A stretch of 64,000 nucleotides of DNA from Phycisphaerae bacterium (lineage in GTDB: Bacteria; Planctomycetota; Phycisphaerae; UBA1845), in the NCBI GenBank assembly GCA_013360585.1, contig JABWBH010000005.1, forward strand, positions 1 through 64,000, read 5' to 3'. The translations under genes were made by a program, and so were the position numbers. Under the pieces are notes generated by a model. That model had not been told where the DNA came from and did not search any database. It was given only the letters and a program-made list of their open reading frames with translations. Positions 56,623-64,000 of this stretch are shown piece by piece (the first letter of the stretch is position 1; every line of letters starts with the position of its first letter).

Positions 56623-58599
56623 TCACGCTCCGCCGGGCGGAGCTTCGCGCCACGTTCCGGGTTCGGAAGCGTGCGCGACGGTGTCGGGAAGGACGGGAGA
56701 TGGGCGATCGGCGGTCCGGGAGGCGTCCTGGGGGCGGGTGAAGGGGATCGTCAGGCGGTAGGCGCCGTCGCGCAGGCGGCTTTGGACCGGGAACCCGCAG
56801 CGGTGGAAGATGCGGAGCATGCCGTGGTTGTCGATGAGGACGTCGGCGGTGAAGCCCGCCAGGCCAGTCGCCCGGGCCGCGTCCACCAGCGCCCGCATCA
56901 GCGCCGTGCCCACGCCCCTGCCCTGCCAGTCGTCGCGCACCAGGAACGCGGCGTCGGCGAAGTTCGTGGCCGCGTCGCGGTGATAATGCGCGATTGCGAT
57001 GATCCGTGCATCCTCCGCGCGCCGCGACGTCAGGACGACGAGCGCCATGTCATTCTCATAATCGACGCGGAGCAGATCCTGAAGCTTTTCATGCGGGAGG
57101 GTCTTGATCATGTGGAAGAAGCGGTAGTGGATCGACTGCGGCGAGAGCTGGTAGAACAGATCGCGGACGAGCGGCTCGTCGGTCAGTTTCAGCGGCCTTA
57201 AGAACGCCTCGACGCCGTCCTTGAGCCTGATCGATCGCTCGAGCGCGTCCGGGTACACGGCCGTGCGGATCGGCGGTTCGATCTGGTCGAGGTAGATCAT
57301 GCGGCGGGCTTTCGCTTCGCTGAAGAGCCACGGGCGGAACTTCGGATGCGCCACCTGGATGAGGGCAAGCGCGCGCTCGCGGATCGTCTTGCCGTGCAGG
57401 TACGCCACGCCGTATTCGGTGACGATGTAGTGAACGTCTCCGCGGCTGGTGACGACGCCGGCGCCGGGCTTGAGGGTGGGGACGATGCGCGAGATCGTCT
57501 CGCCCTCGGCGGTTGCGGGCAGGGCGATGATCGGTTTGCCGCCGACGGACCTCGCGGCGCCGCGGGTGAAGTCCACCTGCCCGCCGATGCCGCTGTAGAA
57601 CATCGTGCCCAGCGAATCCGCGCAGACCTGTCCGGTAAGGTCCACTTCGATGGCGGAGTTGATCGAGATCATGCGGTCGTTGCGGGCGATGATGAAGGGA
57701 TCGTTGACGTATTCCGTCGGATGAAACTCGACCAGCGGGTTGTTGTCCACGAAGTCGTAGACTTTCTTCGTTCCGAGCACGAACCCGGCGACGATCTTCC
57801 CGCGGTGCAGCGACTTCCGCGCGTTGGTGATCACGCCCTTCTCGACCAGCGGGATGACCCCGTCGCTGAACATCTCGGTGTGGATGCCCAGGTCGCGGAA
57901 ACCGGTCAGGTAGGTCAGAACGGCGTCGGGAATCGTGCCGATGCCGAGCTGGAGCGTCGCCCCGTCCTCGACAAGTTCTGCGACGTGGCGGGCGATCCGC
58001 GCGGACAGTTCGTCCGGTTCGCCGTGCTTCGCTTCGAGCACCGGGCGATCCGAGGGGACGAGCACGTCCAGATCGCGCACATGAATGAAGCAGTCGCCCA
58101 GGCCGCGCGGCATACGCTCGTTCACTTCGGCGACGACGAAGCGCGCGGACTCGGCCGCGGACTTCACGATGTCGGTGGAGACGCCGTAGCTGCAATACCC
58201 GTGCTCATCGGGCGGGCTGACGGAGATGAGCGCAGCGTCCACGACGACGCGCCCGGTGCGGAAGAGCGCGGGGATTTCCGACAGGAAGATCGGCGTGTAA
58301 TCCGCGCGGCCTTCGTTGATCGCCTGCCGGACGTTCGGTCCGATGAAGTACGAGTTGTGCCGGAAGCAGTGTCCGAGACGCGGTTCCGCGTAAGGCGCGA
58401 TTCCGAGCGTGAGGATGTGGACAATCTCCGTGTCGCTCAGGTCGGTGCGCGCGGCGAGCGCCTCGACCAGCCCCTGCGGTTCGCCCGCGCCGGACCCGAT
58501 GAACACGCGCTGCCCCGGTCGAATGTCCGCAACGGCCTGCGCGGCGGTGCGGATCCGGTCGGCGTAACGTTCTTTCCAGTTTGCCGTGGTTGAACTCAT
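56623..58599 (-). CDS. Acetyl-CoA hydrolase/CoA-transferase fused to a GNAT acetyltransferase domain
   Basis: 658 residues. Residues 1-~440 are a family I CoA-transferase of the 4-hydroxybutyrate/acetate CoA-transferase type (GQRVFIGSGAGEPQGL, SDGVIPLVEKG, the region PTEYVNDPFIIARND, GIGGQVDFTRGA, GRVVTSRGDVHYIVTEYG-like segment). Residues ~465-625 are a GNAT domain with the acetyl-CoA loop VRDDWQGRGVGTALM. The joined form is known in annotated genomes; the GNAT half may acetylate lysine or sense acetyl-CoA. The last ~30 residues are disordered. It follows the 5-formyl-THF cyclo-ligase gene on the same strand after 208 bp. Confidence 0.9.
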   Translation of the reverse strand: MSSTTANWKERYADRIRTAAQAVADIRPGQRVFIGSGAGEPQGLVEALAARTDLSDTEIVHILTLGIAPYAEPRLGHCFRHNSYFIGPNVRQAINEGRADYTPIFLSEIPALFRTGRVVVDAALISVSPPDEHGYCSYGVSTDIVKSAAESARFVVAEVNERMPRGLGDCFIHVRDLDVLVPSDRPVLEAKHGEPDELSARIARHVAELVEDGATLQLGIGTIPDAVLTYLTGFRDLGIHTEMFSDGVIPLVEKGVITNARKSLHRGKIVAGFVLGTKKVYDFVDNNPLVEFHPTEYVNDPFIIARNDRMISINSAIEVDLTGQVCADSLGTMFYSGIGGQVDFTRGAARSVGGKPIIALPATAEGETISRIVPTLKPGAGVVTSRGDVHYIVTEYGVAYLHGKTIRERALALIQVAHPKFRPWLFSEAKARRMIYLDQIEPPIRTAVYPDALERSIRLKDGVEAFLRPLKLTDEPLVRDLFYQLSPQSIHYRFFHMIKTLPHEKLQDLLRVDYENDMALVVLTSRRAEDARIIAIAHYHRDAATNFADAAFLVRDDWQGRGVGTALMRALVDAARATGLAGFTADVLIDNHGMLRIFHRCGFPVQSRLRDGAYRLTIPFTRPQDASRTADRPSPVLPDTVAHASEPGTWREAPPGGA

Positions 58600-60250: not shown

Positions 60251-60634
60251 GGCTGTCGTCTCCCGTCCGCCCTCGACATCACCTGAACCTTCGCGTCCCG
60301 CTCCGCGGCCGCCCGTTGCGCCGTTTCGCGCAGCGCGTGCGGTCAACGAAGCGCGGGGCGCCGCGCCGGTAGTGCGGCGAGCGCCCTCAATCCACAAGAG
60401 TACGATTTCGCGCCAGGTGGACGCCCTTACTCCTGCAATCGCGCCCGGATAATCGCGGCGGACGCTGCATTTCAGGCGGATGTTGCCGGAAGGCGCCGAA
60501 GCGACGTGCCGCAACCCCAGGGTCTGGTATGCGGATTGCCCCGTTTTTCGCGAGGGGCAGACCTTGCAGGGCCGATCGCGCGCCGCGTCGAGGCCGCACA
60601 GGCGGAGGGTCGCCTTTTCAGGGAGGGTCCGGGC
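60251..60634. other. Divergent intergenic region, 384 bp
   Basis: Between the membrane protein (minus) and the POR operon (plus). A hairpin TGCCCC...GGGGCA with an 11-nt loop (about 60537-60559) lies in the presumed leader of the POR transcript. A GATAAT at about 60450 could be a -10 but has no -35. No gene. Confidence 0.35.
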
Positions 60635-62845
60635 GTGGTGGAGATGACGCTCTACGGCCGGGGCGGTCAGGGTGGAGTGACGCTGGCGAAGCTGATCGCG
60701 ACGGTGTTCTTCCGGCGCGGCGCTTATGTGCAGGCGTTCGGCGTGTACGCGGCGGAGCGGTCCGGAGCGCCGGTTCAGGCGTTCGTCCGCATCAGCGACG
60801 CGGAGATCACGAATCACAACCAGGTAAAGACGCCGGATCACGTCATCGTTCTCGATCGCACGCTGATCAGTTCGGCGATCGTCGAAGGACTCAAGCCCGG
60901 CGGGTGGATCCTGCTTAACACTCCCGAGCCTCCCGGGGCGTTCAAGGCGTTGCTGCCCGGGCGTCGCGTGGCGTGCGTGGACGCAACGTCGATCGCGGTT
61001 GAGGAGCGGCTCGGAACGCGCGCGGTTCCGATCGTCAACACGACCTTGCTCGGCGCGGCGGCGCGGATGTTCGACGTGCCGGTCGAGGAGGCGATTGCGG
61101 CGCTGGCGAACCTTCGCTTCGGCGAGTCCAACGTGCGGGCGGCGCGTCGGGCCTTTGACGCCGTGCGTCAAGAAACGCTTCCCGGCGCAACGGCGTCGCC
61201 GCCTCAGCGCACGGCGGCAGCGCCGCGGGACGTTCTGGATGACGCCGTCGGCGAGGCGCCGCGACTGCGCACGGGAAGCTGGGCGTCGCGTCAGCCGCAT
61301 CGCCGGACGCTGACCCCGCCGTGCAATCGCGGGTGTCCGGCGGGCAACGAGGTGCGCGGGTTCGTCGAGGCGATCCAGCGCGGAGATCCGACGGCGGCGC
61401 TGGACGTCCTGCTGGAGACGACGCCGCTGCCCGGCGTGTGCGGACGGGTGTGTCCCGCACCTTGCATGAACGCCTGCAATCGGAGGCTTTTCGACGAGGC
61501 CGTCAACATCCGCGACCTGGAGCGTTACGCGGCGGACCACGGTACGCGCCCGCCGGCGGTGAGGCCCTGGCGGGCGGAAACCGTGGCGGTCGTCGGGTCC
61601 GGACCGGCCGGGCTTTCCGCGACGTATTATCTGGCGCGTCTCGGTTATCCGGTCACGTTGATCGAGGCTGGTGCGGAGTTGGGCGGATTGCTGCGCACCG
61701 GGATTCCGGAGTACCGCCTGCCGCGGGACGTGCTGGATGAGGAAATCCGTCACATCCTCGATCACGGGGTGACGGTATGTCATGAGCGCGTCACGCTTGC
61801 GTCCCTGGCGGAGCTGACGACGCGCTTCGCAGCGGTTTTCGTGGGGTCCGGGCTTCAGGCAGAGGAGCGGATCGACCTTGGTGAAGGCGGAGACGGCGTT
61901 GTCCTCAGCGGGTTGACGTTCCTCGACGAAGCGCGCCGTGGCGGAATCCGGCTCGACGGCGAGCACGTGCTGGTCGTCGGCGGAGGAAACACGGCGGTGG
62001 ACGCGGCGCGGACGGCGATCCGTGTCGGCGCGGGAGACGTGCGCATCGTGTACCGCCGGACGCGCGCCGAGATGCCCGCGATCGGCGAGGAGATCGACGA
62101 AGCGCTGGAGGAGGGCGTCCGGATCGAGGAGCTTGCGGCGCCGGTCCGGATCCGGCGGGCGGGCGACGCGGCGCTGCTGACGTGCCGGCGGATGCGGCTT
62201 GGTGAACCGGGTGCGGACGGTCGTCGCGGCGTCGTGCCTGACGTGAGCGAGGACGGGTATTTCGATCTGCGCGGGGACCGCGTCATCCTGGCACTGGGAC
62301 AGTCCGCCGATCTGCGCATCCTTCCGGAAGGGTCGCAGATCCGCGAGGGGGCGGCGCTGGTCGGTTTCGCGTCCGCACCGGTTTTTCTGGGCGGAGACTT
62401 CGCCACGAATGAGGGGACGGTTGCGGCGGCGATCGGAAGCGGTCGTCGTGCGGCGCTGCACCTTCACCGGGCGCTGACGGGGGAGGATCTTTTTCCGCCT
62501 GAACCGGCGCCGGTGGCGACGCCGGAGCACGTCACGATGCACATCTTCATGCCTGCGCCGGGCGCCCACGGGCGGGTGACGCCGGCTTCGGAGCGCCGGA
62601 ATCCGTTCACGGAGGTTCGCCGCGGGCTTCCGGATGATCCGGTGTTCCACGTAGCCGAGGACGAGGCCGCGCGGTGCTTCAGTTGCGGCGTGTGCAATCA
62701 ATGCGACCGGTGCGTCCAGTATTGTCCGGAAGGCGTGCTGGTGCGGCGCGGCGAGGAGTTTTTCTTTGATTACGGTCAGTGCAAAGGATGCGGCGTATGC
62801 GCATCGGTATGCCCGCGCGGCGTCGTGTACCTGACCGAACTCTGA
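60635..62845 (+). CDS. 2-oxoacid:ferredoxin oxidoreductase gamma subunit fused to GltD-like NAD(P)H flavoprotein and delta ferredoxin
   Basis: About 736 residues. (1) 1-180: POR gamma domain (LYGRGGQGGVTLAKLIA, YAAERSGAPVQAFVRIS). (2) 215-300: the Fe-S N-terminal domain of glutamate-synthase small subunit (CNRGCPAGNEVRGF, PGVCGRVCPAPCMNAC). (3) 305-640: two-dinucleotide flavoprotein with the FAD site VAVVGSGPAGLSATYYLA, the NAD(P) site VLVVGGGNTAVDAAR and YRRTRAEMPA, whose arginines favour NADPH. (4) 680-736: two 4Fe-4S motifs (CDRCVQYCPEG, CKGCGVCASVCPRG) of the delta subunit. It would move electrons between NAD(P)H and the TPP-alpha/beta core of a pyruvate-type oxidoreductase. GTG 60635 has GGGAGG 8 bp upstream. 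The alpha gene follows after one small gene. Confidence 0.9.
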   Translation: MVEMTLYGRGGQGGVTLAKLIATVFFRRGAYVQAFGVYAAERSGAPVQAFVRISDAEITNHNQVKTPDHVIVLDRTLISSAIVEGLKPGGWILLNTPEPPGAFKALLPGRRVACVDATSIAVEERLGTRAVPIVNTTLLGAAARMFDVPVEEAIAALANLRFGESNVRAARRAFDAVRQETLPGATASPPQRTAAAPRDVLDDAVGEAPRLRTGSWASRQPHRRTLTPPCNRGCPAGNEVRGFVEAIQRGDPTAALDVLLETTPLPGVCGRVCPAPCMNACNRRLFDEAVNIRDLERYAADHGTRPPAVRPWRAETVAVVGSGPAGLSATYYLARLGYPVTLIEAGAELGGLLRTGIPEYRLPRDVLDEEIRHILDHGVTVCHERVTLASLAELTTRFAAVFVGSGLQAEERIDLGEGGDGVVLSGLTFLDEARRGGIRLDGEHVLVVGGGNTAVDAARTAIRVGAGDVRIVYRRTRAEMPAIGEEIDEALEEGVRIEELAAPVRIRRAGDAALLTCRRMRLGEPGADGRRGVVPDVSEDGYFDLRGDRVILALGQSADLRILPEGSQIREGAALVGFASAPVFLGGDFATNEGTVAAAIGSGRRAALHLHRALTGEDLFPPEPAPVATPEHVTMHIFMPAPGAHGRVTPASERRNPFTEVRRGLPDDPVFHVAEDEAARCFSCGVCNQCDRCVQYCPEGVLVRRGEEFFFDYGQCKGCGVCASVCPRGVVYLTEL

Positions 62846-62860
62846 TCGAAAGGGAAGACA

Positions 62861-63379
62861 ATGAACCGTCATCTTCTGGGAATAACCGGTGTGTTCATCA
62901 CGGCGTGCGCGGCGGGGGCGCTGGTGATGTTCGGCGGCGCGTCCGCGGGCGCCGATCAGGACGTCGCGCGGAAGCCCGTCCTCTTCCGCATCGGGACGTT
63001 TCAGCGCGCCGACGTGATGGTCGCGTATCACCGCTCAAAACAACATGACGACGTGATGAAGGAGTTGATCCGGAAGCGCGACGAGGCGCGGGCGACGGGC
63101 GACGAGGCGCGGGTCAAGGAGCTGGAGACGCAGGGCGCCGCGATGCAGGAGCGGGCGCACCGTCAGCTCGCCGGTGAAGCCCCGATCACGAACATTCTTG
63201 CGCATCTGAAAGAAGCCTGGCCCGCGATCGCGCGTGAGGCGGGCGTGGACGCGATCGTCGAGGCGACGCTCTTTGCGAGCGAAAACGTCGAGACCGTCGA
63301 TGTCACGTCGCTGGTGGTGAAGCAGTTCCCGTCGGCGCACCCCGACCGCAAACCCGCGGAGCCGAAGGCGGGCGGATGA
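62861..63379 (+). CDS. Exported OmpH/Skp-like small protein
   Basis: 172 residues with a signal peptide (about 1-32, ending near SAGADQ). The mature part has a charged helical stretch (DDVMKELIRKRDEARATGDEARVKELETQ), then ITNILAHLKEAWPAIAREAGVDAIVEATLF and VDVTSLVVKQF; the order of a start strand, coiled coil and terminal D-V/I-T-x-x-V-V-K strand is that of Skp/OmpH periplasmic chaperones. It lies 15 bp after the POR fusion gene and 16 bp before the alpha gene, so it is surely in the same transcript, an odd place for a secreted protein. Confidence 0.75.
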   Translation: MNRHLLGITGVFITACAAGALVMFGGASAGADQDVARKPVLFRIGTFQRADVMVAYHRSKQHDDVMKELIRKRDEARATGDEARVKELETQGAAMQERAHRQLAGEAPITNILAHLKEAWPAIAREAGVDAIVEATLFASENVETVDVTSLVVKQFPSAHPDRKPAEPKAGG

Positions 63380-63395: not shown

Positions 63396-64000
63396 ATGAA
63401 GGCGCTGGTGACAGGGAATCATGCGGCGGGGCACGCTCTGGCGGCCTGCGGCGAGGCGAACCGGTCGGCGCGGGGATGCGCCGCCGGGGCGTACCCGATC
63501 ACACCGCAGACGGAGATCATCGAGTTCCTGCGGGCGTTCAACTTCTCCCGCGGGCGCGTCGTGCCGGTCGAGAGCGAGCACAGCGCGATGGCGGTCTGCA
63601 TCGGCGCGTCGATGAACGGCGCGCGCGCCTTCACCGCCAGCTCCGCCAACGGACTGGCGTACATGGTCGAGAACGTCTTCGCGGCCGGGTACCTCCGCCT
63701 GCCGATTGTGCTCGTCGCGGTGAACCGAACCCTGGGTCCGCCGTGGAACATCTGGGTGGACCAGGGCGACAGCCTGATGTTCCGCGACGCGGCTTGGATT
63801 CAGTTTTACACGGAGTCGCATCAGGATCTGGTGGACACGATCCTGCTGGCATTCCGCGTCGCGGAGGATCCGCGCGTGATGCTGCCCGCGTGCGTCGCGA
63901 TGGATGGCTTCGTTGTCTCGCACACGTTGATGGGCGTCGAGCTTCCGGATCAGGTGCAGGTGGACCGCTTCCTGCCGCCGTGCCACGTGCCGCACCGGCT
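63396..64000 (+). CDS. porA: 2-oxoacid:ferredoxin oxidoreductase alpha subunit, 5' part (cut by window end)
   Basis: About 201 residues are visible and the frame is open to the end. MKALVTGNHAAGHALAACG begins the domain; GCAAGAYPITPQTEIIEFL and VPVESEHSAMAVCIGASMNGARAFTASSANGLAYM are the pyrimidine-domain motifs of pyruvate-type oxidoreductases, and RLPIVLVAVNRTLGPPWNIWVDQGDSL follows. With the beta subunit (expected just downstream, not seen) it cleaves a 2-oxoacid on thiamine diphosphate. GGAAGGAG is about 8 bp before the ATG. Pyruvate as substrate is assumed from the motif set; 2-oxoglutarate or branched-chain oxoacids are not excluded. Confidence 0.9.
   Translation, partial: MKALVTGNHAAGHALAACGEANRSARGCAAGAYPITPQTEIIEFLRAFNFSRGRVVPVESEHSAMAVCIGASMNGARAFTASSANGLAYMVENVFAAGYLRLPIVLVAVNRTLGPPWNIWVDQGDSLMFRDAAWIQFYTESHQDLVDTILLAFRVAEDPRVMLPACVAMDGFVVSHTLMGVELPDQVQVDRFLPPCHVPHR

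Follow-up and report, generated by a model that had tools for sequence, protein, structure and literature searches.

How does a 2-oxoacid oxidoreductase release its electrons when its gamma subunit, a GltD-like flavoprotein and its delta ferredoxin are encoded as one polypeptide? Enzymes of this family are usually depicted as working with ferredoxin. We analyzed a window of 64,000 nucleotides that opens a 140-kb contig from the 4.24-Mb, 97% complete genome of a Phycisphaerae bacterium (GenBank GCA_013360585.1, contig JABWBH010000005.1). The original prediction, made from the DNA letters, suggested that such a fusion in this window belongs to an enzyme wired directly to NADPH, which could synthesize or oxidize pyruvate with no diffusible ferredoxin, or bifurcate electrons. 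We favour, with a probability of roughly 0.7, the reading that the fusion is the subunit through which electrons leave a 2-oxoacid:NADP+ oxidoreductase encoded by three genes.

The fused gene and its modules

The gamma-GltD-delta gene is one open frame of 736 codons at window positions 60635-62845, on the plus strand like all features below unless stated otherwise. Upstream of its GTG start codon the same frame is still open, back to another GTG at 60506. A probable ribosome binding site (AGGGAGGG, 60620-60627) lies 7 bases ahead of the GTG at 60635, and homologues of the fusion protein begin at the residue matching that codon; since the two agree, 60635 is the likely start. A 1130-aa minus-strand frame across the fused gene was rejected as a high-GC shadow frame.

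All four modules claimed by the original prediction were recovered on this one polypeptide by Pfam and NCBIfam searches (residue 1 is the codon at 60635). A POR gamma domain carrying the GRGGQGG motif (PF01558, residues 10-174, 60662-61156, E=2.7e-33) scores 144.7 bits against the PorC_KorC model (TIGR02175), whose cut-off is 81.1 bits. It is followed by a GltD N-terminal Fe-S domain (Fer4_20, PF14691, residues 227-303, 61313-61543, E=1.1e-18) and an FAD/NADP flavoprotein domain (Pyr_redox_2, PF07992, residues 316-599, 61580-62431, E=7e-19), and the protein scores 461 bits against the NAD(P)-binding model PRK12771. The C-terminal module (Fer4_9, PF13187, residues 687-730, 62693-62824, E=1.6e-6) is assigned as a 2[4Fe-4S] delta-type ferredoxin domain on Fer4_9 and its invariant cysteines, its 40 bits against PorD_KorD being below the 60-bit cut-off of that model.

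The fusion is real. Of 100 related genomes, at least 36 encode residues 1-736 or 2-736 in one unbroken frame (57-97% identity), and others of this set carry the fusion cut by contig ends. It also lies in a single 5.25-Mb contig (G048), and ten more whole fusions occur among 294 genomes sampled from the phylum (42-54% identity). In named genomes, at least 14 fused loci are among the best 80 loci, a scan that gives no frequencies. Among the matches listed, the fusion occurs in Planctomycetota, which with Phycisphaerales included are the nearest named relatives, and in metagenome-assembled genomes (MAGs) filed as Pseudomonadota, Actinomycetota, Myxococcota, Thermodesulfobacteriota and Acidobacteriota, of which single MAGs may be mis-binned. 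A search for the full-length fusion on plasmids returned none. The concern that a frameshift or an assembly join had linked separate genes, or that the gene is degenerate, is thus refuted by conservation: the single frame recurs in relatives, in the 5.25-Mb contig and in other phyla, the cofactor ligands are invariant, and we found no point in favour of this reading, whose chances we regard as virtually nil.

Cofactor motifs and predicted NADP specificity

In an alignment of 18 sequences, the invariant positions are GRGGQGG, six cysteines in the GltD Fe-S domain, E296, the glycines of the flavin and nucleotide sites, the YRR triplet and ten C-terminal cysteines, eight of the last in a ferredoxin pattern. 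The canonical cysteine set for the two N-terminal [4Fe-4S] clusters of GltD is incomplete: its two most N-terminal cysteines are missing from the fused proteins and equally from the adjacent and distal unfused architectures described below. A motif resembling the lost one, EAxRCxxCG, sits past the flavin domain in GltD-delta proteins of all three architectures. Here it reads EAARCFSCG (62663-62689), and its two cysteines, invariant in the alignment, may complete the distal cluster as relocated ligands.

With Fer4_20, Pyr_redox_2 and YRR together, the protein has the features of a GltD-type NADP flavoprotein. The YRR motif (62051-62059; YRRTRAEMPA spans residues 473-482) aligns with that of Nfn and predicts NADP specificity. 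Wherever the motif of a fused sequence could be read, it is YRR; three sequences gave no printed motif, and of these L042 and L045 (loci L137 and L140) display YRR in the alignment. It is this triplet that binds the phosphate of NADP in DsrL and NfnB, it settles the choice of NADP over NAD among GltD-type proteins, and the YRR-bearing DaDsrL-2 is strictly NADP(H)-dependent (PMC7596348).

By fold, the flavoprotein domain best matches the GltD-like subunits from NfnABC, StnABC and NfnI, and after these DPD. An AlphaFold model was fair over the gamma and flavoprotein parts; the delta part had a pLDDT below 50, and the domain arrangement was uninformative.

Apart from the one in the fusion, no GltD-like (Fer4_20) domain was found in the genome. 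The other POR-gamma domains of the genome are confined to a single-chain NifJ and to KorA, which leaves PorA and PorB with no other candidate gamma partner. Together with the conserved YRR, these observations lend support to the predicted direct wiring to NADP(H).

The por operon and its candidate substrates

The fused gene was originally described as followed by porA. porA, encoding the alpha subunit (PF01855; full gene in L004), does lie downstream, at 63396-64000 and on to contig position 64562, but it is not immediately adjacent, because a 172-codon gene (62861-63379) intervenes. The product of the latter is a signal-bearing, OmpH/Skp-like exported protein with a match below the Pfam cut-off. 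Both genomes of the same genus that were examined have it in this position, it was seen at no other fused locus, and its product probably does not belong to the enzyme. The beta subunit gene, whose absence would have undermined the original prediction, is present just beyond the window edge (porB, contig positions about 64680-65630). The por operon is conserved in most fused loci, with PorA, PorB and the gamma domain present and co-encoded. Locus-to-locus protein comparison, in which conserved flanking genes were sought as a clue to the substrate, revealed none besides the por genes and shadow frames. An XRE-cupin regulator gene stands after porB in three fused operons from other phyla: in L052, about 4459 bases past the fused start, and likewise in L053 and L056.

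The catalytic core is of the POR/VOR type. Across 47 fused loci, PorA keeps the motifs YPITP, ESEHSAM and NRTLGPPWNIW, and PorB keeps the TPP motif GDGGTYDIG and four cluster cysteines; the TPP motif, catalytic residues and PorB cysteines, which were aligned with PDB 9bt4, are invariant or near-invariant among these loci. Neither subunit reaches an NCBIfam equivalog cut-off, that for pyruvate synthase included. The best model for PorA is pyruvate synthase (NF040682; 342 bits vs a cut-off of 550), and the best for PorB is the 3-methyl-2-oxobutanoate dehydrogenase (VOR) beta subunit (292 bits of 405), ahead of pyruvate synthase (254 bits of 405). As the best models differ and both scores are sub-cut-off, pyruvate and branched-chain oxoacids both stay candidates, so that the substrate need not be pyruvate.

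An NAD(H)-linked enzyme of the phenylglyoxylate or oxalate type would be hardly credible here. The PadG/PadI and oxalate oxidoreductase models do match PorA/PorB, and oxalate oxidoreductase likewise has gamma and delta on one chain. The scores are nevertheless far under the cut-offs of those models, the YPIRP of the oxalate enzyme is YPITP in PorA, and YRR argues for NADP; membership in oxalate oxidoreductase or PadEFGHI was rejected on these scores and residues.

Proposed electron path and direction

In the 2-oxoacid:NADP+ oxidoreductase that we favour, PorA and PorB would bind both TPP and CoA and release CO2 from pyruvate and/or a branched-chain 2-oxoacid, and the gamma domain would anchor the flavoprotein to this catalytic core. 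Electrons would pass from TPP through the PorB [4Fe-4S] cluster to the two delta clusters, and onward through the GltD Fe-S domain and FAD to NADP+. The products would be acyl-CoA, CO2 and NADPH, with no obligatory free ferredoxin, and the favoured net reaction would be 2-oxoacid + CoA + NADP+ -> acyl-CoA + CO2 + NADPH.

Ferredoxin might dock on the delta clusters too. A POR complex that contains its own ferredoxin:NADP+ reductase, joining the ferredoxin, NADPH and 2-oxoacid pools, is unlikely in our judgement, even though the delta-type clusters are intact with invariant cysteines, and the NifJ and KorAB of this genome must dispose of their electrons. Since no other GltD-like protein was found, the genome also has no Nfn through which ferredoxin and NADPH could exchange electrons. 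What speaks against such a reductase is an analogy with HdrA: a GltD inserted next to its ferredoxin domain is predicted to shut ferredoxin out (PMC12054007).

With respect to direction, the original prediction is only partly supported. The 2-oxoacid couple has a potential of about -500 mV and NADP one of about -320 mV. Electron transfer to NADP+ is downhill and no bifurcation site was found, so the oxidative direction is favoured. Reverse running, in which NADPH drives reductive carboxylation (pyruvate synthesis), perhaps via flavin-based electron bifurcation, strikes us as improbable. The nearest structural matches, Nfn and Stn, do have bifurcating GltD-type flavoproteins, and E296 aligns with the Nfn region of a glutamate that we take to be a ligand of the FAD-proximal cluster. 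Against this, the reverse reaction is uphill by roughly 35 kJ/mol on textbook standard potentials, and no CdhC/AcsB (CODH/ACS) was found in the genome. Nor was a second flavin, a [2Fe-2S] cluster, a high-potential acceptor site or the high-potential-branch domain of Nfn/Stn seen in the fusion, PorA or PorB, and the informative neighbouring genes are catabolic. The NADPH-driven pyruvate synthesis and the bifurcation that had been envisaged therefore both lack support. A ferredoxin-free, NADPH-driven or bifurcating 2-oxoacid synthase, whose one-chain GltD flavin and delta clusters would allow NADPH to push reductive carboxylation, is very improbable.

Oxidation by the three-gene enzyme is the likely direction, being downhill, in a genome lacking CODH/ACS, and with amino-acid-catabolism genes beside some copies. 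Such neighbours (genes for branched-chain or aromatic 2-oxoacids) were found at only three of the examined fused loci; most operons stand alone. Locus L051 has the order porA, porB, IlvE, fusion, CoA-transferase, in which IlvE exceeds its NCBIfam cut-offs. In L164 the operon runs on into IorA and then IorB fused to an ADP-forming CoA ligase, and L158 has IOR and a class-IV aminotransferase near the fused operon. These three neighbourhoods point to oxidation of amino-acid-derived 2-oxoacids.

Two gene fusions near these operons merit separate mention. The L051 CoA-transferase is 50.7% identical to the product of window positions 56626-58599 (minus strand), which lies outside the operon and is a butyryl-CoA:acetate-type CoA-transferase (acetyl-CoA hydrolase/transferase family) carrying a C-terminal GNAT acetyltransferase domain. 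The IorB fused to an ADP-forming acyl-CoA ligase, beside IorA, is at L164:14296-17424 (plus strand) and L158:2-1114 (minus strand); this chain would join acyl-CoA formation with ATP-yielding hydrolysis. Frames with a POR-gamma domain and about 1010-1090 codons are found again and again in many related genomes.

The genome encodes haem-copper oxidases, as well as two E1-beta-sized transketolase-like frames compatible with PDH/BCKDH. Through the fusion, oxygen-respiring Phycisphaerae-related bacteria may couple the oxidation of amino acids or pyruvate to their supply of NADPH, and its annotation as an ordinary ferredoxin enzyme would be corrected.

Comparison with known systems

GltD-linked 2-oxoacid:NADP+ oxidoreductases with separate subunits are already known, and the fused form adds a variant. 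The Azoarcus evansii 2-oxoglutarate:NADP+ oxidoreductase (Ebenau-Jehle 2003, cited in PMC10134865 and PMC8163825) resembles ours as a 2-oxoacid oxidoreductase with a GltD-homologous subunit and use of NADP+. Its flavoprotein is reportedly a separate subunit, whereas here gamma, GltD and delta form a single chain, and the core belongs to the POR/VOR type instead of the 2-oxoglutarate type. Pyruvate:NADP+ oxidoreductase (PNO) of Euglena and Cryptosporidium likewise ties a PFOR covalently to an NADP(H) flavoprotein, but a different one from that of the fusion (PMC10079235). The four-subunit archaeal and Thermotoga POR and VOR (PDB 9bt4) share the alpha, beta, gamma and delta modules; they differ in having gamma and delta separate and no flavoprotein, with electrons passing to free ferredoxin. 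DsrL shares the GltD-type flavoprotein, the C-terminal 2[4Fe-4S] domain and, in its NADP type, YRR, but its partner is the DsrAB sulfite reductase and it has no gamma domain. Oxalate oxidoreductase (PDB 5c4i), with gamma and delta in one subunit, differs in its lack of a GltD insert and its oxalate-specific arginine in alpha.

A POR-linked GltD-delta gene was noticed, and then excluded, in a survey of DsrL (PMC7596348). The literature searched, which included few subscription papers, yielded no description of the gamma-GltD-delta fusion and no biochemical work on the fusion clade. A conserved clade of this kind suggests that the electron carrier is changeable by swapping the output subunit, and the three-gene system offers a test bed for ferredoxin dependence.

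Origin of the fusion

Three architectures were distinguished: fused (51 loci, a few of them one genome counted twice), adjacent unfused (gamma, GltD-delta, porA, porB; 11 loci) and distal unfused (gamma, porA, porB, GltD-delta; 41 complete loci). Unfused four-gene operons of gamma, PorA, PorB and GltD-delta (PRK12771) consist of homologous modules, but as separate genes that fall in another clade in both trees. All fused rows form one clade in the GltD-delta tree (96 SH-aLRT, with one derived paralogue, L055, inside) and one clade on a long branch in the PorA+PorB tree (100 SH-aLRT); both were quick searches with SH-aLRT support only and roots for drawing only. Because the fused rows form one clade in both trees, PorA/PorB and GltD-delta appear to co-descend. 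The simplest reading of the trees and gene orders would be that adjacent genes fused once and that the whole complex then descended together, the order gamma, GltD-delta, porA, porB being the probable precursor.

A GltD-delta paralogue was also observed, fused to a preceding multihaem c-type cytochrome and likely membrane helix (L145:8019-10667, minus strand; L055:6381-9578, plus strand), with FCLE where YRR is expected. As L055 nests in the fused clade, gamma and NADP binding were possibly lost, and the protein may now serve in membrane electron transfer.
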